The notes under the pieces are model-generated. The model saw only the letters and a list, made by a program, of their open reading frames with translations. It did not search any database and was not told where the DNA came from. A DNA stretch of 49,968 nt, taken from the NCBI RefSeq assembly GCF_018283645.1, contig NZ_JAGSXH010000040.1, forward strand, positions 1-49,968. Direction: 5' to 3'. The DNA comes from Actinocrinis puniceicyclus. Its GTDB lineage: Bacteria; Actinomycetota; Actinomycetes; Streptomycetales; Catenulisporaceae. Of the stretch, positions 5,017 to 37,401 are shown one piece after another. A program made the position numbers and the translations under genes. Numbering within the stretch: the stretch's first letter is position 1; the number at the start of each line of letters is the position of its first letter.

Positions 5017-6339
5017 TCAGGAGCCGAAAACGCGCCGGGTGTACGCATTGGCGAATACGCGCTGCGGGTCCGCCTTATCGCGTACGGCGAGGAAATCGTC
5101 GAAACGTGGATACGCCGTAGCGAAGTAGTCCCTGTCACGCGTGTGCAGCTTGCCCCAATGCGGGCGTCCGTCGTACGCGACCATGATGGACTCGGCGTTC
5201 TCGAAGTACTCGGTCGGACTCACGCCGTTGGGCATGTGGAACGCCAGATAGGCGGTGTCGCGGCCGTACGCGGTCGAGAGCCACAGCTTGTCGGCCGGTG
5301 CCGTGCGGACCTCGATCGGGATGCTGATGCGCAGGCCGGCGTCCTGAAGCATTCGCCGCACCTCACGCAGCGCTGGAACGGTTGCCGCCCGCGGCAGTGC
5401 GTATTCCATCTCAAGGAACTTGAAGCGCCGCGGCGAAGTGAACACCTTGTCCGACCGGTCTGTATAGCTGCGCGCCGACAGGGCCCTTGCCGCGAGTTTG
5501 TTGATGGCGGGAACGGCGCGCGGCGCGCTGCGGCCCGCCTTGAGCAGTCCCGAGTAGAACGTGTTGGACAGGAACTCGTCCTCGAACCACGTGCGTCCGC
5601 GCGAGAGCGGGGCCGCCGGTCCGGCCGTGCGGTTGTTCCGCTTGAGCATGGTGGTGTCGGTGTGCGGGAACCACCAGAACTCGAAATGCTCGTTGTCCTG
5701 CCACAGCTGATCGAAGGAATCGAGCACCGCGTCGAGCCGCATCGGTTCCTCCTGCGCGGCCAGCAGGAAGGCCGGCTCGGTGCGGAAGGTGACCGAGGTG
5801 ATCACGCCGATGGCGCCGAGCCCGATGCGCGCCGCCTCGAACAGTTCGGGGCGCTCGGTCGCCGAGCAGCTCACCGTCGACCCGTCGGCGAGCACCAGTT
5901 CCAGCGCCGCGACCTGCGCGGCGATGGACGCGCTCGCTTTTCCGGTCCCGTGCGTGCCGGTGCCGATCGCCCCGGAGACGGTCTGCTCCTGGATGTCGCC
6001 CATGTTGGTCAGCGCCAGGCCCTGTTCGGCCAGCAGTTCGTTGAAGCGCCACAAGGGCATGCCCGCCTCGACGGTGACAAGCCCGGACGCCTTGTCCGCC
6101 GACCGCAGGCGCGCCAGGTGCTCGAGACGAACCAGTACCCCGTCGGTCACCGCGACCGGGGTGAAGGAATGGCCGGTGCCGACCGGTTTGACGGCCAGTC
6201 CCTGGCCGGCGGCCTCCCGCACGACCTGCGCGACCTCGGCGGTGCTTCCCGGCGTGGCTATGCGCCGCACCCGGGATTTCTGGTTGCCGGCCCAGTTGGT
6301 CCACGTGCGGGTCGGCGCGGCGCTCGCCTCAGTGCTCAC
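5017..6339 (-). CDS. FAD-linked sugar-lactone oxidase (D-arabinono-1,4-lactone / L-gulonolactone oxidase family)
   Basis: The protein belongs to the VAO-type FAD oxidases that act on aldonolactones or alditols. The N-terminal FAD-binding PCMH domain has [28 protein letters not shown] and [12 protein letters not shown]. The His of GTGHSF corresponds to the residue that carries covalent FAD in alditol and gulonolactone oxidases. The C-terminal ALO domain contains [10 protein letters not shown] and ends [11 protein letters not shown] and [15 protein letters not shown], both typical. The frame is open up to an ATG at 6441, but those first 34 residues are Arg-rich and not family-like. The GTG at 6339 gives 440 residues, the usual length; a start at 6426 or 6441 is possible. 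It is divergent from hemH. Confidence 0.85.
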
Positions 6340-6435
6340 AGCCCAGTTCGCCCATCTCTTCAGGTCGGCGCGGTGCCGAGCGCGGGCCGTCCCGCGCGGG
6401 GCTCTCGCGCGTAGCCAACGCGACATGCGCCCGGG

Positions 6436-6452
6436 CGTCAAGAGCCGTCAAG
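6436..6452. repeat. Tandem CTTGACG repeat in the oxidase/hemH intergenic region
   Basis: Two copies of CGTCAAG (6436-6442 and 6446-6452; CTTGACG on the minus strand) are spaced by 10 bp. The upstream copy (TTGACG on the minus strand) has GCATGT 17 bp downstream and may be the -35 of the oxidase gene, which would support the downstream GTG start. Confidence 0.3.
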
Positions 6453-6517
6453 CGCGTACGGCCGGTTTCGCAGGCTCCGGCCGCGGCCTGCGGCAGCAGG
6501 CGTGCGAGGATGGCTTC

Positions 6518-7597
6518 ATGTCTTTGGCCAGCCCGTACGACGCTCTGCTGCTGCTGTCCTTCGGCGGACCGGAGGGACCGGAAGACGTGGTGCCGTTCCT
6601 GGAGAACGTCACCCGAGGTCGCGCAATCCCCAAAGAGCGCCTGGTCGAGGTCGGCGCGCACTACTTCCATTTCGGCGGCGTCAGTCCGATCAACGGGCAG
6701 AACCGGGCCCTGATCGCCGCGCTCGAACGCGACTTCGCCGGGCAAGGACTGGATCTGCCGATCTACTGGGGCAACCGGAACTGGGACCCATACGTCGCGG
6801 ACACGCTCGCTCAGATGGCGGCCGACGGAGTACGCCGCGCCGTGGTCTTCGTCACTTCGGCCTATTCGTCGTACTCCGGTTGCCGCCAGTACCGCGAAGA
6901 TCTGGCCGCGGCGATGGAGTCGGGCGGCGCGGGGAGCGCGGGGCTGTCTCTCGATCGCATCCGCGCCTACTACGACCACCCGGGTTTCGTCGAGCCCATG
7001 ATCCGCTCGACGGTCGATGCGCTGGGCGCGCTCGACGCGTCTGTGCGCGATGCCGCCGAGCTTGTGTTCGTTACGCACTCGCTGCCGCTTGTCCTGGCGG
7101 AGTCGAGCCTTTACGTCGAACAGCACCGCACAGTCGCGCATCTGGTGGCTCAGGGTGTGGAGCTGGCCACCGGGGTCAGCGGCCGGGTGAGCACGTTGAC
7201 GTACTGCAGCCGCAGCGGACCGCCGAGCCAGCCCTGGCTGGAACCGGACATCGGCGACCACCTGTGCGAGCGCTCGGCTCAGGGCCCCGCCGCGGCCGTC
7301 GCGGTCCCGATCGGCTTCGTCTCGGACCACATGGAGGTGGTCTACGACCTGGATACCGAGGCGGCCGAGACGGCGGCCAAGCTCGCCCTGCCCTTCGCCC
7401 GTGCGGCCACCGTGGGCACTGATCCGCAATTTGTCGCCGCGATCCGTGACCTCGTGCTCGAACGAGCGGCGCGGGCGCGCGGCGAACAGCCCAGGCCCAA
7501 GGCCCTCGGGTCGCTGGGCGTGATGCCGGACGTGTGCCGAGCCGGATGCTGCGCCAACCCGAGGGCGCACCGCCCGGCGTTGTGCGGCTCAGACTGA
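6518..7597 (+). CDS. hemH: Coproporphyrin III ferrochelatase
   Basis: This 359-residue enzyme inserts Fe(II) into coproporphyrin III in the actinobacterial heme route (also called CpfC). The N-terminus reads [18 protein letters not shown], followed by [10 protein letters not shown] and [15 protein letters not shown]. The catalytic His is H187 in FVTHSLP, and [15 protein letters not shown] holds the conserved Glu. C122 (SGCRQYRE) and the C-terminal C340, C344 and C345 (DVCRAGCC) fit the ligands of the [2Fe-2S] cluster found in actinobacterial ferrochelatases. The ATG at 6518 was chosen because the family begins a few residues before YDALL. The stop overlaps the next start as TGATG, so the downstream phosphatase is likely translationally coupled. 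Confidence 0.95.
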
Positions 7598-8442
7598 TGG
7601 CGCAGCGGGACGCACCGATGGCGGGTGTCAGCGGCGGCACGGCATTGGACCCATGGCGGTTGCTGGATCTGGCCCGTGCGGCGGCGACGCAGGCCGCTCG
7701 GCTCGCGGTCGAGCGGCGGCCGGCGGACCTCGGCGTCGCGGAGACCAAATCCAGTCCGACCGACGTGGTGACCGAGATGGACACCGCGGCCGAATCGCTC
7801 ATCCGGGAGCTGATCCTCGGACAGCGGCCCGATGACGCTTTCCTCGGTGAGGAAGGCGGCGCCGAATCAGGGCGCAGCGCGGTGCGTTGGGTCATCGACC
7901 CGATCGACGGCACGGTGAACTACCTTTACGACTTACCGCACTGGGCCGTCTCCGTGGGCGTGGAGGTGGATGGGATCACAGTCGCAGGCGTCGTAGCCGC
8001 TCCCCGTCTCGGTGAGCTGTACACGGCGGTGCGGGGCGCCGGGGCCTGGTGCAACGATGAGAAGCTTCGCGTCAGACCGACCACCGAGCTTGGTTCCGCT
8101 CTGATAGCCACCGGTTTCGGTTATCGTGCCGAGCGTCGGCGACGCCAAGGCGCGATCGCCGGTGCGCTGCTGCCGCGGGTACGTGACATCCGGCGAGCCG
8201 GTTCGGCGGCGTTGGACCTGTGCGCGGTCGCAGCGGGCCGGGTGGACGGCTACTACGAGCGGGGAACACACCACTGGGATCGCTGTGCCGGGGCTCTGAT
8301 CGCCACGGAGGCGGGCGCGATCGTCGGGGGCTTCGAGGGTGCCCCCGCGAGCGAGCAGATGGCTCTGGCGGCTCCTCCAGGGACCTTCGAGGCGCTCCAC
8401 GAAGCATTGAGGGAGCTCGGCGCCGACGCAGTCGATTACTGA
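7597..8442 (+). CDS. Inositol monophosphatase family protein
   Basis: This Mg2+-dependent phosphatase of the IMPase/FBPase superfamily has 281 residues from the ATG that shares its A with the hemH stop. The metal-binding residues are visible in FLGEEGG (about 82-88), VIDPIDGTVNY (99-109) and WDRCAGALIATEAGA near the C-terminus. SPTDVVTEMDTAAE is the lead-in block of the family. Possible substrates include inositol-1-phosphate, histidinol phosphate or similar monophosphates; sequence alone does not decide. The pairing with hemH is conserved in actinomycetes. An alternative start at the ATG at 7618 would remove seven residues. Confidence 0.9.
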   Translation: MAQRDAPMAGVSGGTALDPWRLLDLARAAATQAARLAVERRPADLGVAETKSSPTDVVTEMDTAAESLIRELILGQRPDDAFLGEEGGAESGRSAVRWVIDPIDGTVNYLYDLPHWAVSVGVEVDGITVAGVVAAPRLGELYTAVRGAGAWCNDEKLRVRPTTELGSALIATGFGYRAERRRRQGAIAGALLPRVRDIRRAGSAALDLCAVAAGRVDGYYERGTHHWDRCAGALIATEAGAIVGGFEGAPASEQMALAAPPGTFEALHEALRELGADAVDY

Positions 8443-8520
8443 CGTCCGATGACCCAGTGATTCGCTATCTAACACCGCATGACGCTGCGCAGTCGCGGCG
8501 GGTATCCCGCGCGAATGCTA

Positions 8521-8552
8521 AGCGCCCCACACCGCGCAGGGCGTGGGGCGCT
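8521..8552. terminator. Bidirectional hairpin between IMPase and the 59-residue protein gene
   Basis: AGCGCCCCAC (8521-8530) pairs perfectly with GTGGGGCGCT (8543-8552) around a 12-nt loop. It lies between two convergent genes, as expected for a shared terminator. There is no U-tract, which is common in actinobacteria. Confidence 0.65.
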
Positions 8553-8586
8553 TGTTCGGAGTCTCGTGGTTCAGCTCGGGAGATGA

Positions 8587-8766
8587 TCAGGCGGCGGTGG
8601 TAGACGGCGCGACATCTACGCCGTGCTCGGCCGCGATCCGCAGCAGGGAGTCGAGCTCGCCCTGCTCAACTTGGACCGCATACGGGTCCTTTGCGTACAC
8701 AGCACGGCGCAGGGCCGTCTCCGTGTCGTAGATGCGCTGACGCAGACGAATGGAGAACTCTCCCAT
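8587..8766 (-). CDS. Small conserved protein of unknown function (59 aa)
   Basis: This gene runs from an ATG at 8766 (minus strand) to a TGA at 8587 and encodes 59 residues beginning MGEFSIRLRQRIYDTETALR and ending in Thr/Ala. A strong Shine-Dalgarno AAGGAG lies 8 bp before the ATG. The coding part has an obvious third-position G/C bias. The protein is predicted to be a helical hairpin (LRQRIYDTETALRRAV, then LDSLLRIAAEHGVDV) with no membrane segment or cysteine. I do not know a function. It lies between hemH-IMPase and the two-component pair, a place where actinomycetes often have such a short gene. Confidence 0.75.
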   Translation of the reverse strand: MGEFSIRLRQRIYDTETALRRAVYAKDPYAVQVEQGELDSLLRIAAEHGVDVAPSTTAA

Positions 8767-9136
8767 TGGTTCGCTCCTTGCGCGGGGAGGGGCGGACAGG
8801 CGTTCCGGTGAGGGTCCGGGCTGCCGCCAAAGCCGTAGACGTCGGGGCCGGATCGGCCGCGGGTGTAGGGAGTCGCCTTCCTGATGTTCGTACCGGGAAT
8901 GGATCTAGCTCGTAGGTCGTGCCGCACTCACCAAGTGCCCACGCCGCCGTACCGGCAGGTTGAGCCATCTGGGTCAAGCTTCCCGAACCGGCTGACCGCC
9001 AAACCATCCGTTGGGACGCCGTCCTTTCTTGACCCTCCCTTTACGCGGCGCGCGGCAGGCTGTTCTCTTCGAGCGAGCCTCGACCGATGAATATCGGTCG
9101 GGCGTGAAGCCACGGTGAAGCGGAGGCGTACGGAAC
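8767..9136. other. 370-bp regulatory gap between the 59-aa gene and the cutR-like gene
   Basis: This stretch holds no gene that I can support. It must contain promoters for both divergent genes. The visible signals are a palindrome at 9081-9100 and a direct repeat at 9104-9121, both close to the response regulator start, and TTGACC at 9029-9034 as a possible -35. Confidence 0.6.
9081..9121. promoter_or_regulatory. Candidate operator upstream of the response regulator
   Basis: CGACCGAT (9081-9088) and ATCGGTCG (9093-9100) form a perfect inverted repeat with a 4-bp centre. Just downstream GTGAAGC occurs at 9104-9110 and 9115-9121, an 11-bp period. Direct repeats with 10-11 bp spacing are the usual target type of OmpR-family regulators, so autoregulation is possible. 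The Shine-Dalgarno GGAGG follows at 9122-9126. Confidence 0.45.
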
Positions 9137-29682: not shown

Positions 29683-30159
29683 ATGTTCCTCGGCACCTTC
29701 GTTCCGCGCCTGGACGACAAGGGCCGGCTGATCCTGCCGGCCCGGTTCCGCGAGGAGGCGGCCCGGATCGACGGAACGGAGCGGCTGGTGATCACCAAGG
29801 GGCAGGAGCGGTGCCTTTCGGTGTGGCCGGCCTCGGCGTTCGCCGAGGCGGCGGACCGGATCCGCCGCGCCTCCGCGACCGGTTCACTCGCCTCGCCCCG
29901 CGCGGTGCGCGACTACCTGCGGGTGCTCTACGCGGGCGCCAGCGAGCAGTCGTTCGACAAGCAGGGCCGCATCACCTTGCCGCCCGCGCTGCGCGAGTAC
30001 GCCGGCCTGACCCAGCAGGTCGCCGTCGTCGGCGCGGATACGCACTTCGAGCTTTGGGACGCGGCGGCCTGGGACCGCTACGTCGCCGAGAAGGAACCGG
30101 CCTTCGCCGACCTGGATCAGGACGACCTGTTCCGGGGGGTGGCGCCCGACCTGCCCTGA
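29683..30159 (+). CDS. mraZ: Transcriptional regulator MraZ
   Basis: MraZ is a ring-forming DNA-binding protein that autoregulates the division and cell wall cluster. The 158-residue protein contains two SpoVT/AbrB-like repeats, with DDKGRLILPARFREE at about 11-25 and DKQGRITLPPALREYAGL at about 93-110. The N-terminal MFLGTF and the spacing are typical. GGAGG lies 6 bp before the ATG. It is separated from rsmH by 255 bp containing a long hairpin, so mraZ may often be transcribed alone. Confidence 0.95.
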   Translation: MFLGTFVPRLDDKGRLILPARFREEAARIDGTERLVITKGQERCLSVWPASAFAEAADRIRRASATGSLASPRAVRDYLRVLYAGASEQSFDKQGRITLPPALREYAGLTQQVAVVGADTHFELWDAAAWDRYVAEKEPAFADLDQDDLFRGVAPDLP

Positions 30160-30181
30160 ACCGATGCGTCCAGGGCCGCGC

Positions 30182-30287
30182 GCCGCGGCCGTGGGCCTCC
30201 ACCCGCTCACCCGCGTTCTGAAGCCCCTTCCCCGGTTCCAGAGCGTTCGTGAGTACATCCGAGCGGGCGGGGACCCACGGCCGCGGC
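30182..30287 (+). terminator. Long hairpin between mraZ and rsmH (terminator or attenuator)
   Basis: GCCGCGGCCGTGGG (30182-30195) and CCCACGGCCGCGGC (30274-30287) pair perfectly over 14 bp. Inside, four further pairs and then CCCGCTC (30202-30208) with GAGCGGG (30261-30267) extend the stem to about 25 pairs with two mismatches. The 52-nt loop is unstructured by eye. CTTCTTCCCC follows. The stem starts 23 bp after the mraZ stop. Confidence 0.6.
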
Positions 30288-30401
30288 CTTCTTCCCCGGT
30301 ACCACTGTCCAGTGTCGCGCCCGTACCGCGTATCGCCGTGCTGCGCCGGCTGCGGTGTGTCGCGTGCGCTGCGACCGACCGCCGCCCGTGAGCTGCGGTG
30401 G

Positions 30402-30407
30402 GATACT
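30402..30407 (+). promoter_or_regulatory. -10-like hexamer of a probable leaderless rsmH transcript
   Basis: GATACT lies exactly 7 bp before the ATG at 30415. The A and final T of the TANNNT consensus are kept, while the first T is not. The 16 bases from 30403 to 30418 recur upstream of ftsL at 31634-31649. Confidence 0.45.
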
Positions 30408-30414
30408 GGCCGGC

Positions 30415-31515
30415 ATGGCACCTGACTCGGCGGCGGATGACGACACGGCTCGAAAGGGCGATACGGGCCGCATGCGCTCCGAGCCGCGGCAGGCGAGAGA
30501 GCCGGCCGCTGCGGAATCGGCGAGCCACGCCCCGGTCATGCTCGAACGCTGCGTCGAGACGCTGGTCCCGGCGGCCGTGGACGGCGCGGTCTTCGTCGAC
30601 GCGACCCTCGGCCTGGGCGGGCACAGCGAGGCACTGCTGCGCGCCTGTCCGGGAATCCGGCTGATCGGACTGGACCGCGACCCGCAGGCGTTAGCGCGTT
30701 CGAGTGAACGGCTGGCGCCGTTCGCGGACAGGATCGACCTCGTGCACGCCGTCTACGACGAACTGCCCGTGGTACTCGACCGGCTCGGGGTGCGGAGCAT
30801 CCACGGCATCCTCTTCGACCTCGGAGTCTCCTCGCTACAGCTCGACGTGCGCGAGCGCGGCTTCGCCTATGCCTTTGACGCGCCGCTGGACATGCGCATG
30901 GACCAGGACGCGCCGCTGTCCGCATACGAGGTCGTCAACACCTACCCGGTCGCCGAACTGGCTCGCGTCCTGCGCGAATACGGCGAGGAGCGCTTTTCCG
31001 GACGGATCGCCTCGGCGATCGTCGCGGCCAGGGCCAAGGAGCCGTTCACCACCACCGGTCCGCTGGCCGAACTGGTGCGTGACTCGATCCCGGCGGCTAC
31101 CCGGCGCACCGGCGGGCATCCGGCCAAGCGCACGTTCCAGGCGCTGCGCATCGAGGTCAACGCGGAACTGGCGGTCCTGCAGCGGGCGATTCCGGCGGCG
31201 ATCGACGCGCTGGCGGTCGGCGGGCGCATCGCCGTGCTCGCCTACCACTCGCTGGAGGACCGGTTGGTCAAGCGGGCGCTGGCGGCGGGAGCGGCTTCGA
31301 CCGCGCCGCCCGGCCTGCCGATCGCGCCGCCGGACACCGACCCGCTGCTGCGGCTGCTCACCCGGGGGTCACAGGAGCCGAGCGCGGCCGAGATCGCCGA
31401 GAACCCGCGCGCGGCTTCGGCGAAGTTCCGCGCCGCCGAACGGGTGCGCGAAGGGGCGGTGGCCCGCCGGCTGCGCGACACCGCAAGCCAGGATCGCAGA
31501 GCCCGTCGCTATTAG
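30415..31515 (+). CDS. rsmH: 16S rRNA (cytosine1402-N4)-methyltransferase
   Basis: RsmH (MraW) methylates N4 of C1402 in the decoding centre of 16S rRNA. The core begins with [15 protein letters not shown] and has the SAM motif [47 protein letters not shown] and [11 protein letters not shown]. From the ATG at 30415 it has 366 residues, including 38 variable ones before the core. An ATG at 30472 is the alternative and gives a more usual length. The upstream start is kept because of the -10-like box. It is separated from ftsL by 159 bp with a perfect palindrome. Confidence 0.95.
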
Positions 31516-31535
31516 AGCGTTAAGTTCGGTTTCGT

Positions 31536-31555
31536 GGCGGATCGGCCGATCCGCC
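31536..31555. terminator. Perfect 20-bp palindrome between rsmH and ftsL
   Basis: GGCGGATCGGCCGATCCGCC is fully self-complementary and begins 20 bp after the rsmH stop. It could form a cruciform or hairpin acting as a partial terminator, or be a protein-binding site. Confidence 0.45.
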
Positions 31556-31632
31556 CCTGGATCGGGCCGAAAATCCGCGAAGACCGGGCGGCATGTGCCG
31601 CGCCGTTACGCCTTCTCGCATCGGCCTTGCGG

Positions 31633-31638
31633 AATACT
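31633..31638 (+). promoter_or_regulatory. -10-like hexamer upstream of the ftsL leader ORF
   Basis: AATACT lies exactly 7 bp before the ATG at 31646. Together with the following bases it forms the same 16-base block that precedes rsmH. Confidence 0.4.
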
Positions 31639-31645
31639 GGCCGGC

Positions 31646-31678
31646 ATGGTTGCAGCACTGACGGGGGAGCGGCGGTGA
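31646..31678 (+). CDS. Ten-codon upstream ORF coupled to ftsL
   Basis: The ATG behind the -10-like box opens a frame of ten codons, MVAALTGERR, ending in the TGA at 31676-31678. That stop overlaps the ftsL GTG (31675-31677) as GTGA, the same 4-bp coupling used elsewhere in the cluster. GGGGGAG at 31662-31668 inside it can serve as the ftsL ribosome site. It could be a leaderless initiation device that delivers ribosomes to ftsL. The ORF is too short for family evidence. Confidence 0.3.
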   Translation: MVAALTGERR

Positions 31679-32232
31679 GCGCCGGGCCGCCGGAGGGTCC
31701 GCCCGACTCGATCCGCGGACGGGTGCGCCGGCCCGGCCGGGTGGGTCCGGTCGCGGTGATCGAGGGATTCGCGGGCCGCCGGTCGGTCGTTCCCTTCGCC
31801 ATCCTCGTGCTGTGCCTGCTGGCCGCCGGACTGGTGATCCTGCTGCTGCTCAACACCGCACTCGACCGCGGCGCCTTCCAGATCCAGGCCGCGCAGAAAC
31901 GGCGCTCCCAGCTGACGGACCGCCAGCAGGAACTCCAGCTGAGCCTCGCCGCACTCTCCGCGCCCGGGGCGCTGGCCTCGCAGGCCTCGGCACTCGGCCT
32001 GGTACCCAACCCGCGCCCGGCCTTCCTCAACCCGAGCAGCGGCGCCGTCCTGGGCGTGCCGACCCCCGCGCCGACCACGGCGGCGCCCTCGCCCTCGCCG
32101 TCGCCGTCGCCGTCAGCGACGCCCTCGGCCTCAGGCACCGCCTCGGCGACGGCCTCGCCCACCGCGCCCGCATCCGCATCCGCATCCGCATCCGCATCCG
32201 CATCCGCATCCGCGCCCGGGGCGCGCCCGTGA
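31675..32232 (+). CDS. ftsL: Cell division protein FtsL-like (septum formation initiator)
   Basis: This 185-residue bitopic protein has a 45-residue cytoplasmic part, one membrane segment (about 46-67, SVVPFAILVLCLLAAGLVIL) and a short coiled-coil-like region with AAQKRRSQLTDRQQELQLSL, followed by LASQASALGLVPNPRPAFL, as in actinobacterial FtsL. The last 65 residues are Pro/Ser/Ala/Thr-rich, ending in a run of Ala-Ser dipeptides. FtsL links FtsQ and FtsB/DivIC to FtsWI at the septum. The GTG start follows GGGGGAG and overlaps a short upstream ORF. The stop overlaps ftsI as GTGA. Confidence 0.88.
   Translation: MSAGPPEGPPDSIRGRVRRPGRVGPVAVIEGFAGRRSVVPFAILVLCLLAAGLVILLLLNTALDRGAFQIQAAQKRRSQLTDRQQELQLSLAALSAPGALASQASALGLVPNPRPAFLNPSSGAVLGVPTPAPTTAAPSPSPSPSPSATPSASGTASATASPTAPASASASASASASASAPGARP
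32170..32211 (+). repeat. Hexanucleotide tandem repeat (GCATCC)x7 inside ftsL
   Basis: Seven perfect copies of GCATCC run from 32170 to 32211 and encode alternating Ala and Ser near the C-terminus of FtsL. An imperfect CCGTCG run lies shortly upstream (about 32096-32114). Unit loss or gain keeps the frame. Confidence 0.95.
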
Positions 32233-34127
32233 GCCCCACACGCGACGGCGACCGCGGAAACGACGGACGCCGGGTACCGCCACGTCGAACTCCGCAGCAG
32301 TCCGCGAAGCCTCGTTCAAGTGTGCGGACACGGACCGAGAACCGCGTCAGCGCGCCGCCTGCCGCGGCCAAGCCGCTCCAGCTGGGTGACCCGCGCCGGC
32401 GGCTGCGCGTCGGGATGATCACGATGGCGTTCGTACTCTCCCTCTTCGGCGGCCGGCTCTTCCAGCTACAGGCCGTGGACGCGGTGAATTACGGCGCCAG
32501 CGCGGCTGCCGCCAGAACGCAGGACTACGTCCTGACCGCGACTCGCGGCGCCATACTGGACTCCGCCGGCCGGCCGCTGGCCGAATCGGTCGACGCCGTC
32601 GACATCACCGCGGACCCGGTGCAGGTCAGGAGTCTCAAGCAGGACCCGGCGGTGTACGCCTCCAAACTCGCCGCGCTGCTGGGCAATCCGCCCGGCAGCG
32701 TCGACGTGGGCAAGCTGCGCGCCAAGCTGTCCGACGTGACGACCCGTTACGTCCTGCTGGCCAAGCAGATCACCCCGCAGGTCTGGAATCAGGTCAAGGC
32801 CCTGGGTCTGTCCGGGGTCTACGGCGTACCCGACGCGAAGACCGTGTACCCGAGCGGACCGGTTGCCTCGAACCTGGTCGGCTTCATTGACGGCTCGGGC
32901 AAAGGCGCGGCCGGCCTGGAACGCGCCTACGACGGGTTGCTGGCGGGCAAGAACGGCCGCATCTCCTACCAGGCCGCCGACGGCGCCGAGATCCCGACCG
33001 CGGGCATCAACGAGCAGGCGCCCGTGCCCGGCACCTCGATCGAGACGACCATCGACGCCGCGATCCAGTGGGCCGCGCAGCGGACGATCGACGCGCAGGT
33101 CTCCGCCTCGAAGGCCGAGTCGGGCACGGTCGTGGTGATGGACCCGCGCACGGGCGCGATCCTGGCGCTGGCCACCTCGCCGAGCTACGACCAGACGAAC
33201 CTGTCCGCGGTGAACCCGGCCGACCTCGGCGACCGCGCGGTCTCCGAGGTCTACGAACCCGGTTCGGTCGCGAAGGTGATCACGATGGCTGCGGCCATCC
33301 AGCAGGGTGTGGCGAGCCCGACGACACGTGTGGTGGTGCCCGGCGCGATCCAACGCGAGGGAACCGTCTTCCACGACGACACCGCGCACGCCACCGAGCA
33401 CCTGACCCTCACCGGAGTGCTGGCCGAGTCGAGCAACATCGGCACCATCGAGACCACCGACACCTTCGGCCCGGACCGCGACCAGATCCTCTACCGTTAC
33501 CTGACCGAGTTCGGCTTCGGCCGGTACACCGGGCTGAACCTGCCCGGCGAGTCCGCCGGACTGCTCGCGCCCCCGTCGAAGTGGAGCGGCTCACAGCGCT
33601 ACACCATCCCCTTCGGCCAAGGCCTGTCTGTCAACGCGGTCCAGGCCACCAGCGTTTTCGCCACGATCGCCGACGCCGGGGCGCGTGTGACGCCCAACCT
33701 GGTCAAGGGCTACGTCGATACCGGCGGCCGTTTCACCGCCGCACCCGCCGCGTCACGCACCCAGGTCGTCTCGCCCGGCACCGCGCACGAGGTCGAACAG
33801 ATGATGGAGTCCGTGGTCTCCGAAAAGGGCACCGCGCCCGCCGCGAAGATCCCCGGCTACCGCGTCGCGGGCAAGACCGGCACCGCGAACCGCTTCGACA
33901 GCCGGTGCGGCGGCTACTGCGGCTACACCGCCTCGTTCATAGGGTTCGCACCCGCCGACGACCCGCAGTTGGTGGTCTCCGCGGTGATCCAGGACCCGAC
34001 CAGCGGCCCGTACTTCGGCGGCTCGATCGCCGCGCCGGTATTCCAGAAGGTGATGTCCTTCGCGCTGCAGAGCCTGGCGATCCCGCCCACCGGCACCAAA
34101 CCGCCGAACCTGCCGGTGCAGTGGTGA
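32229..34127 (+). CDS. ftsI: Peptidoglycan transpeptidase FtsI (class B PBP, PBP3-type)
   Basis: FtsI cross-links septal peptidoglycan together with FtsW. The 632-residue protein has a disordered basic N-terminus, a membrane segment at about 60-78, the PBP dimerisation domain and a transpeptidase domain. The active-site motifs are S346-V-A-K349 in EPGSVAKV, S401-S-N403 and K549-T-G551. RGAILDSAGRPLAESV is the conserved class B block. GGYCGYTASF contains one of two Cys near the end (C560 and C564). The GTG start overlaps the ftsL stop. A 176-bp gap separates it from murE. Confidence 0.95.
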   Translation: MSPTRDGDRGNDGRRVPPRRTPQQSAKPRSSVRTRTENRVSAPPAAAKPLQLGDPRRRLRVGMITMAFVLSLFGGRLFQLQAVDAVNYGASAAAARTQDYVLTATRGAILDSAGRPLAESVDAVDITADPVQVRSLKQDPAVYASKLAALLGNPPGSVDVGKLRAKLSDVTTRYVLLAKQITPQVWNQVKALGLSGVYGVPDAKTVYPSGPVASNLVGFIDGSGKGAAGLERAYDGLLAGKNGRISYQAADGAEIPTAGINEQAPVPGTSIETTIDAAIQWAAQRTIDAQVSASKAESGTVVVMDPRTGAILALATSPSYDQTNLSAVNPADLGDRAVSEVYEPGSVAKVITMAAAIQQGVASPTTRVVVPGAIQREGTVFHDDTAHATEHLTLTGVLAESSNIGTIETTDTFGPDRDQILYRYLTEFGFGRYTGLNLPGESAGLLAPPSKWSGSQRYTIPFGQGLSVNAVQATSVFATIADAGARVTPNLVKGYVDTGGRFTAAPAASRTQVVSPGTAHEVEQMMESVVSEKGTAPAAKIPGYRVAGKTGTANRFDSRCGGYCGYTASFIGFAPADDPQLVVSAVIQDPTSGPYFGGSIAAPVFQKVMSFALQSLAIPPTGTKPPNLPVQW

Positions 34128-35911: not shown

Positions 35912-37401
35912 TCGGGATGACCCTCGCCGAGATCGCGCGCGCGGTCGGCGGAACGCTCGCCCCGGGGACGGACGGCTCGCTCGCGGTCACCGGGGCGGTC
36001 ACGGTGGACTCGCGCGCGGTGGAACCCGGCGGCCTGTTCGCGGCCTTCGTCGGCGAGCGCGTGGACGGGCACGACTTCGCCGCGGCGGCCGTCGGGCAAG
36101 GCGCCGCGGGCGTTCTGGCGAGCCGCCGGATCGAATCGGACAGCGGCCATATCCCCACCGTGCTCGTCGCGGACGTCAAGGACGCCCTCGGCGACCTCGC
36201 CTACGCGCTGCTGAACCGGTTGCCGGACACCACCGTGATCGGGTTGACCGGCTCCTCCGGAAAGACCTCGACCAAGGACATGCTCGGCCAGGTGCTCGCG
36301 GCGCACGCCGTGACCATCGCGCCGAAGGGCAGCCACAACAACGAGATCGGACTGCCGCTCACCGTCCTGCGCGCCGACGGGAGCACCAGGTATCTCGTGC
36401 TGGAGATGGGCAGCCGCGGCATCGGCCATCTCAAGTACCTGTGCCGGATCGCGCGGCCGTCGGTCGGCATGGTGCTCAATGTCGGCAACGCGCACGTCGG
36501 CGAGTTCGGCTCGAAGGAGCAGACCGCGCTGGCCAAGGGCGAACTGGTCGAGGCGCTGCCGCCGGACGGCCTGGCCGTGCTCAACGCCGACGACCCGCTG
36601 GTGGCGCCGATGCGCGAGCGGACCGCCGCCCGGGTGCTGACCTTCGGCGAGTCGAACGCCGCGGATGTGCGCGCGAGCGGCATCGAACTGGGCCCGGACG
36701 GCCGCGCTCGCTTCGTCCTGCACGCCGACGCCTACGGCCAGCCCGCCGAGGTCGCGCTGCGCGTGGTCGGCGAGCACCAGGTCGCCAACGCGCTGGCCGT
36801 CGCGGCCGTGGCGCTCGGGCTGGGGCTGCCGGTGGACGCGGTCGCGCGGGATCTGTCGGCGGCGCTGCCGCTGAGCGCCGGGCGCATGTCCGTCTCGGAA
36901 CGTCCCGACGGCGTCGTCGTGATCGACGACGCCTACAATGCCAACCCGGAATCGGTGCGGGCCGCGCTCAAGGCGCTGGGCGCACTGGCCCGCGCCCGGC
37001 CCGGGGCACGCTCCTGGGCGGTGCTCGGGCAGATGCTGGAACTGGGCGAGCGCTCCGGCGAGGAACACGACGCGATCGGGCGGTTGGCCGCCCGGCTGCG
37101 CGTCGACCGGCTGGTCGCGGTGGGCGAAGGCGCCGAGCACATCCACGCCGGGGCCGGTCACGAAGGCTCGTGGGGAGAGGAATCCGTGATGGTGGCCGAC
37201 CCGGATGCGGCGCTGGCGCTGCTGCGCGCCGAGCTGAGGCCCGGAGACGTGGTGCTGCTCAAGGCGTCCAACTCGATCGGTCTCGGCCGGGTGGCGAAGG
37301 CGCTGGTCGAGGACGGTGCGATCGAGGAGTGGGCGGTCGAGGACGGCGCGATCGAGGAGTGGGCGGTCGAGGACGGCGTGGCGGCGGAGGGCGACCGGTG
37401 A
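35908..37401 (+). CDS. murF: UDP-MurNAc-tripeptide:D-Ala-D-Ala ligase
   Basis: MurF attaches D-Ala-D-Ala to complete the UDP-MurNAc pentapeptide. The 497-residue protein starts [12 protein letters not shown] (either the GTG at 35908 or the ATG at 35917), with [19 protein letters not shown], the ATP loop GSSGKTS at 115-121, [25 protein letters not shown] and [13 protein letters not shown]. After the normal end ([18 protein letters not shown]) there is an unusual tail of about 35 residues made of a ten-residue unit repeated about 2.5 times. The GTG start overlaps murE, and the stop overlaps mraY, both as GTGA. Confidence 0.96.
37306..37381 (+). repeat. 30-bp tandem repeat at the 3' end of murF
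   Basis: Units occupy 37306-37335 and 37336-37365, with a third truncated copy at 37366-37381. The first two differ at a single base. They encode [10 protein letters not shown] twice, giving an acidic tail. The period is in frame. Confidence 0.95.

Follow-up and report, generated by a model that had tools for sequence, protein, structure and literature searches.

The DNA between rsmH and ftsL in Actinocrinis puniceicyclus is best explained, in our reading and with roughly even confidence, by a leaderless promoter whose ATG (position 31646) opens a ten-codon open reading frame (mini-ORF) with an inferred GTGA coupling to ftsL. The sequence analysed, referred to here as the window, is a stretch of 49,968 nucleotides, and its relevant features are collected in Table 1. 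We propose that AATACT acts as the -10 box and that, seven bases further on, the ATG lies at or beside the transcription start. A 70S ribosome would start on the 5'-terminal AUG, at about 31646, and translate ten codons; the translating ribosome would open a hairpin that holds the Shine-Dalgarno (SD) sequence and the GTG of ftsL, stop at the UGA that overlaps this GTG, and there re-initiate or let another ribosome bind to the SD sequence. What is observed is the sequence, the place and the conservation of the block; the transcription start, the translation of the ten codons and the coupling are the parts of this mechanism that we infer. By its position, the 16-base block that carries the ATG, ATACTGGCCGGCATGG, corresponds to the promoter and start codon of ftsL in a neighbouring genus, whose FtsL begins with the RTG, and indels in the fast-changing N-terminus of FtsL may have put the ATG into another frame, giving the ten-codon ORF.

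Table 1. Coordinates of the features around the rsmH-ftsL junction (positions in the window)
Feature	Position	Strand	Basis or remark
-10-like box GATACT, 7 nt before the rsmH ATG	30402..30407	+	Sequence; lacks the first T of TANNNT
rsmH (mraW), 366 aa, leaderless start proposed at ATG 30415	30415..31515	+	PF01795, E 1.2e-111
Perfect 20-nt palindrome GGCGGATCGGCCGATCCGCC, 21 nt after the rsmH stop	31536..31555	+	Folds as an 8-bp stem with a GGCC loop
-10-like box AATACT, 7 nt before ATG 31646	31633..31638	+	ATACTGGCC invariant here and in 3/3 neighbouring-genus genomes
Ten-codon ORF MVAALTGERR, its ATG the proposed transcript 5' end	31646..31678	+	Counterpart by position of the neighbouring-genus ftsL start codon
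Predicted RNA hairpin	31662..31692	+	GTG in the loop, SD partly paired in the outer stem; -21.0 kcal/mol
Shine-Dalgarno-like GGGGGAG, 5 nt before GTG 31675	31663..31669	+	Sequence
ftsL, 185 aa; begins at an SD-led GTG that overlaps the stop of the mini-ORF as GTGA	31675..32232	+	

From the 60 genomes found, 30 loci were examined: the window, three from the neighbouring genus, which is probably Actinospica (G001, G003 and G005), ten from another genus of the family, presumably Catenulispora, and 16 from other families. In all three neighbouring-genus genomes the block stands after rsmH, directly at the start of ftsL and in the FtsL frame (AATACTGGCCGTCATG, GATACTGGCCGTCATG and GATACTGGCCCTCGTG). 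The starts there read AATACTGGCCGTC-ATG, GATACTGGCCGTC-ATG and GATACTGGCCCTC-GTG, with products that begin MAERP or VAERP, and the interchange of ATG and GTG among these loci preserves a start codon; the spacers (GGCCGTC and GGCCCTC) differ from that of the window. The FtsL of the window and the three neighbouring-genus FtsL proteins have VIEGxAGRR and the core that follows it in common. When the four genomes are aligned on the RTG, 12 of the 16 columns from -13 to +3 are invariant, versus 5 of 47 columns upstream, and the match of the block to the neighbouring-genus ftsL starts was equalled by one of 5000 resampled versions of 31516-31700. Judged by these alignments, the position of the block, unlike the repeat or the GTGA junction, is not chance-like.

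All four loci of the two genera have, no more than 200 nt after rsmH, an RTG that is preceded at 6-8 nt by a -10-like box; the window has a second such box, TAAGTT before GTG 31534. The same layout was found within 200 nt after rsmH at none of the 26 other loci (ten from Catenulispora and 16 from other families), and the block is absent from all 26. For the earlier note, relatives that lack the ATG or shift its frame would refute the idea, and this is partly so. The RTG is kept in the neighbouring genus, but it lies in the ftsL frame in 3/3 genomes and no mini-ORF occurs at this place there. A coupled layout in related species, which is reported for some of the mycobacterial cases and is not required, was found in neither the neighbouring genus nor Catenulispora.

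Starts of the leaderless type are common in this genome, judging by the spacing of its -10 hexamers. In an 861 kb sample, TANNNT stands 6, 7 or 8 nt before RTGs that are in frame in 26, 21 and 9 cases, and before those out of frame in 4, 7 and 5 cases (2150 versus 1490 RTGs); over 400 kb of G003 the corresponding counts are 25, 9 and 3 versus 0, 4 and 2 (1092 versus 641 RTGs). AATACT and GATACT both lie at 7 nt, within the 6-8 nt peak of TANNNT in the genome. The -10 consensus of leaderless promoters is the full TANNNT hexamer, which neither box has, the first base being A or G instead of T. The class NATANT is not clearly enriched at 6-8 nt (eight in frame versus four out of frame; zero versus one in G003). 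No -35/-10 pair of the sigma-70 type was found. Leaderless genes are reported to make up more than a fifth of genes in Actinobacteria and to be marked by a TA-like signal some 10 bp ahead of the start codon (PMC3160421).

The earlier note had described a ten-codon ORF from ATG 31646 with a stop that overlaps the ftsL GTG as GTGA, and this is indeed what the sequence contains: the TGA at 31676-31678 overlaps the GTG at 31675-31677. This ATG and ftsL are in different frames; the next codon that could start ftsL in its own frame is GTG 31675. The product from this GTG matches no Pfam family at E 0.001. GC3 is 0.89 in 31675-31755 versus 0.65 in 31597-31674, and the codon score is neutral in 31675-31755 (-0.01 bits/codon) and 0.69 in the ftsL core. 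With ten codons the mini-ORF falls within the 5-50 codons of the small ORFs of Shell et al. (2015), and it has their RTGA overlap if ftsL starts at GTG 31675, a junction with a high chance level.

Three other readings of this start have to be weighed; we consider each of them weaker than the leaderless mini-ORF. In the first, which is unlikely though the likeliest of the three, the promoter is real and ftsL is translated on its own through GGGGGAG and GTG 31675, the 5'-terminal ATG being left over without a use. The SD sequence is a fair one at a spacing of 5 nt, and the nine codons of the mini-ORF have no coding signature (-0.52 bits/codon), as this reading would have it. The frequency of coupled endings also speaks for it: in the 861 kb sample, 1471 out-of-frame RTGs near gene starts have no -10-like box 6-8 nt upstream, and for 276 of them the ORF is 2-50 codons long and ends in GTGA or ATGA on the frame of the gene. 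Such endings thus often arise by chance, and a GTGA or ATGA junction alone is not rare here. After -10-like boxes they are not significantly enriched (6/19 versus 276/1471, p 0.13; in G003 3/7 versus 100/634, p 0.09). The ftsL case itself is absent from these counts, since at this place a longer overlapping frame (31662-34124) was chosen as the gene. Other RTGs outside the gene frame, among them L184:12021, L185:5586, L171:1942 and L196:16579, have a TANNNT box 6-8 nt upstream and open 5-17 codons that end in RTGA on the frame of a gene; these are further candidates for coupled leaderless small ORFs.

The folding of the ftsL start bears on the unused ATG in both directions. Compared with shuffles of its own sequence the predicted hairpin is not exceptional (13 of 200 were as stable for the 41-nt stretch; 96 and 129 of 200 for the 60-nt and 120-nt stretches from 31646), which favours the unused ATG. 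Against it, the SD/GTG region is more stably folded than 226 of 229 SD-led starts (three, or 1.3%, are as stable). As stable a fold was found in 27 of 464 random coding 41-mers (5.8%) and at none of the 17 gene-gene RTGA starts in the sample, the latter a point against the coupled mini-ORF. This predicted stability is to be expected at a site that is opened by the ribosome of the mini-ORF, and could likewise come about if the GTG were not the true start. For leaderless initiation in mycobacteria, moreover, an RTG at the transcription start is reported to be both required and enough (PMC4633059), which speaks against an ATG that is not used.

In the second reading, which seems improbable, ftsL starts leaderless at GTG 31534 (TAAGTT, 7 nt, GTG), and its N-terminal part merely contains the ten-codon ORF as a passenger in another frame. 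GTG 31534 is in the ftsL frame with no stops between, and the peptide that it opens, VADRPIRPWIGPKI, resembles the neighbouring-genus [MV]AERPSRxGxGPRL. One of 3000 RTG-anchored resampled regions gave a match as good, and the match ranks third among the 44,590 RTGs sampled. When the six residues that follow the RTG are scored alone, 6 of 5000 resampled regions and one of 486 window tiles reach the score. Codons 2-21 could be coding, as 28% of 47 leaderless-like genes score as low. The match is, however, encoded by the perfect palindrome at 31536-31555, a structure that would form at the extreme 5' terminus of such a transcript, and we rate the start at 31534 lower because its N-terminal match proved to lie on this palindrome. 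Without anchoring, 79 of 3000 resampled regions equal the match. Codons 22-47 look non-coding (-0.63 bits/codon), with one of the 47 leaderless-like genes as low by this score and three of 47 by GC3; GC1, GC2 and GC3 of 31534-31674 are flat (0.70, 0.68 and 0.70), and the codon score of this stretch was reached by 0.27% of 374 coding windows. The block match and the peptide match cannot both be collinear homologues: one of them is due to chance, or the region has been rearranged.

Perfect palindromes of 20 nt occur twice in the window, the one discussed here (GGCGGATCGGCCGATCCGCC) included. Folding around the palindrome at 31536-31555 is strong: 31534-31583 has a z-score of -3.28, with two of 200 shuffles as stable, and for 31516-31583 the count is 15 of 200. 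It may be a 3'-end hairpin without a U tail, or possibly an operator; a simple scan called no terminator there. A perfect stem of at least six pairs occurs in the 110 nt before the ftsL start in one of the three neighbouring-genus genomes.

The third reading, to which we give little credence, is an assembly indel, for example in the run of five G bases at 31663-31667: the true ATG would be in the ftsL frame, ftsL would be leaderless and the mini-ORF would be an artefact. A difference of one base would indeed join the frames, and the SD/GTG context folds more like the interior of a coding region than like an SD-led start (5.8% versus 1.3% in the comparison above). An indel is nevertheless unlikely because no frame split was seen in 69 orthologue-like genes with 23,134 aligned residues, when 484 query proteins were compared with G003. 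Indels in a run of five are also rare in MiSeq data at 37x. The A. puniceicyclus draft was obtained by MiSeq at this coverage (PMC9308616).

The observation in the earlier note that bases 30403-30418 and 31634-31649 are identical is correct: ATACTGGCCGGCATGG occurs at both places, and the genome (6,765,010 bases in 430 contigs) holds no further exact copy. The first copy extends one base beyond the rsmH ATG at 30415, and the second contains ATG 31646. The window has 14 distinct maximal two-copy direct repeats of at least 16 bases, so the repeat is unremarkable, and a 16-base repeat by itself is weak evidence. Outside the 16-mer, nothing longer than 8-base matches was found between the rsmH and ftsL regions, and a search for a duplication of 31516-31632 into 31633-31760 gave nothing above 8-base matches either. 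A search of the genome with 31537-31680 gave no other strong match, the best having an E value of 0.019. Matches to a relaxed form of the block, ATACTGGCCN(2-4)RTG, occur in 13 of the 14 family genomes searched; where the locus was available some of them open a long ORF and others do not, and we claim no regulon. In the A. puniceicyclus genome, the third relaxed match (contig C24) begins a frame of 25 codons.

Exact identity at two adjacent genes and nowhere else in the genome might suggest a common regulatory site or initiation module that coordinates rsmH and ftsL, but we find this scarcely credible and rejected a shared module or operator as a likely explanation. Neither the spacer nor the copy at rsmH is kept in the neighbouring genus, where rsmH has other boxes or none was found; the identity ends at the block except for short matches; and 16-base repeats are common in the window. 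Of the overall interpretation in the earlier note, a coupled 5'-terminal mini-ORF is plausible from the layout of the sequence, and the same initiation module feeding two genes is unsupported.

The copy at rsmH is proposed to be a second promoter of the same leaderless type and not a control element shared with ftsL. The claim that the ATG in the first copy (30415) opens rsmH agrees with the PF01795 match of the product; the exact start stays provisional because the codon score of 30415-30516 is weak (-0.06 bits/codon). A box of this kind near the rsmH start is present in the window, in two of the three neighbouring-genus genomes (TAGACT and TAGAGT) and at one of the 26 other loci (L021).

The earlier note knew of no description of such a layout, but counterparts have been reported, both as coupled leaderless small ORFs in mycobacteria (PMC4633059) and as 5'-terminal AUG ORFs in Escherichia coli (PMC4965119). 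With these precedents, and that of short ORFs that deliver ribosomes (PMC12548453), the case is an example of a known layout and not a novel kind. In Mycobacterium tuberculosis, 23 of 220 leaderless small ORFs are reported as coupled through RTGA, versus 32 of 1000 random ORFs (Shell et al., 2015; PMC4633059). As in that report, a 5'-terminal RTG opens 5-50 codons, the TGA overlaps the RTG of the annotated gene and the sequence of the peptide need not be conserved. The mycobacterial cases rest on mapped transcription starts and ribosome profiling (PMC4633059), where here both the start and the translation are deduced; what sets the present case apart from them is that relatives use the corresponding RTG as the start of the gene itself. 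The likeness to E. coli (Beck et al., 2016; PMC4965119) lies in a 5'-terminal AUG and a downstream SD-led start on one mRNA, and some of the E. coli upstream ORFs are reported to affect the downstream gene. Those ORFs, unlike ours, come from the transcriptome, and the abstract of that paper mentions no GTGA overlap. The -4 (NTGA) overlap, the short ORF that merely delivers ribosomes and the models of RNA unfolding and re-initiation are all treated by Brown and Wade (2025; PMC12548453), which is a review of general cases; 'ftsL' is absent from its text. Among the matches listed from open-licence PubMed Central, by titles and the starts of abstracts, there was none on leaderless or mini-ORF control of ftsL.

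The interest of the case therefore lies in the evolutionary contrast with the neighbouring genus. According to Zheng et al. (2011; PMC3160421), orthologues in Actinobacteria have in the course of time switched from SD-led to leaderless starts or back; the TA-like signal before the start and the switching are shared with the present case, and the difference is that the switch here would go through a small ORF. We suggest tentatively, as a possibility that is still doubtful, that a change of frame in the N-terminus turned the start codon of a leaderless ftsL into a mini-ORF that delivers ribosomes: the promoter and AUG would have been kept, the hairpin-held SD and GTG would have taken over, and ftsL output would now need both leaderless initiation and coupling. 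If this is true, a core division gene depends on leaderless initiation followed by re-initiation, and we would be catching in the act the conversion of a leaderless gene into a coupled pair of small ORF and gene; the Actinocrinis/Actinospica pair would then illustrate how a change of frame in a leaderless gene can give rise to coupled small ORFs of the kind reported in mycobacteria. For annotation, the warning is that the kind of ftsL start may differ between neighbouring genera.

Some further features of this region were noted. The distance between mraZ and rsmH is within about 0.5 kb in the window (29683-30415 for comparison) and in the ten Catenulispora genomes; in two neighbouring-genus genomes the genes are about 10 kb apart (7468449 and 7479032 in G003; 2803 and 12678 on contig C61 of G001), and in G005 they are on separate contigs. 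Between mraZ and rsmH, G003 has two ABC-permease-like ORFs and a LacI-type-like ORF, identified by eye (C1:7470001-7490000, 5987-9001). Within the window, a hexanucleotide array (CCGCAT, 7.7 copies, 32168-32213) lies in the Ala/Ser-rich C-terminus of ftsL and is a candidate for length variation, and a 30-bp unit is repeated 2.5 times at 37305-37378, near the C-terminus of an ORF that by eye is murF-like.
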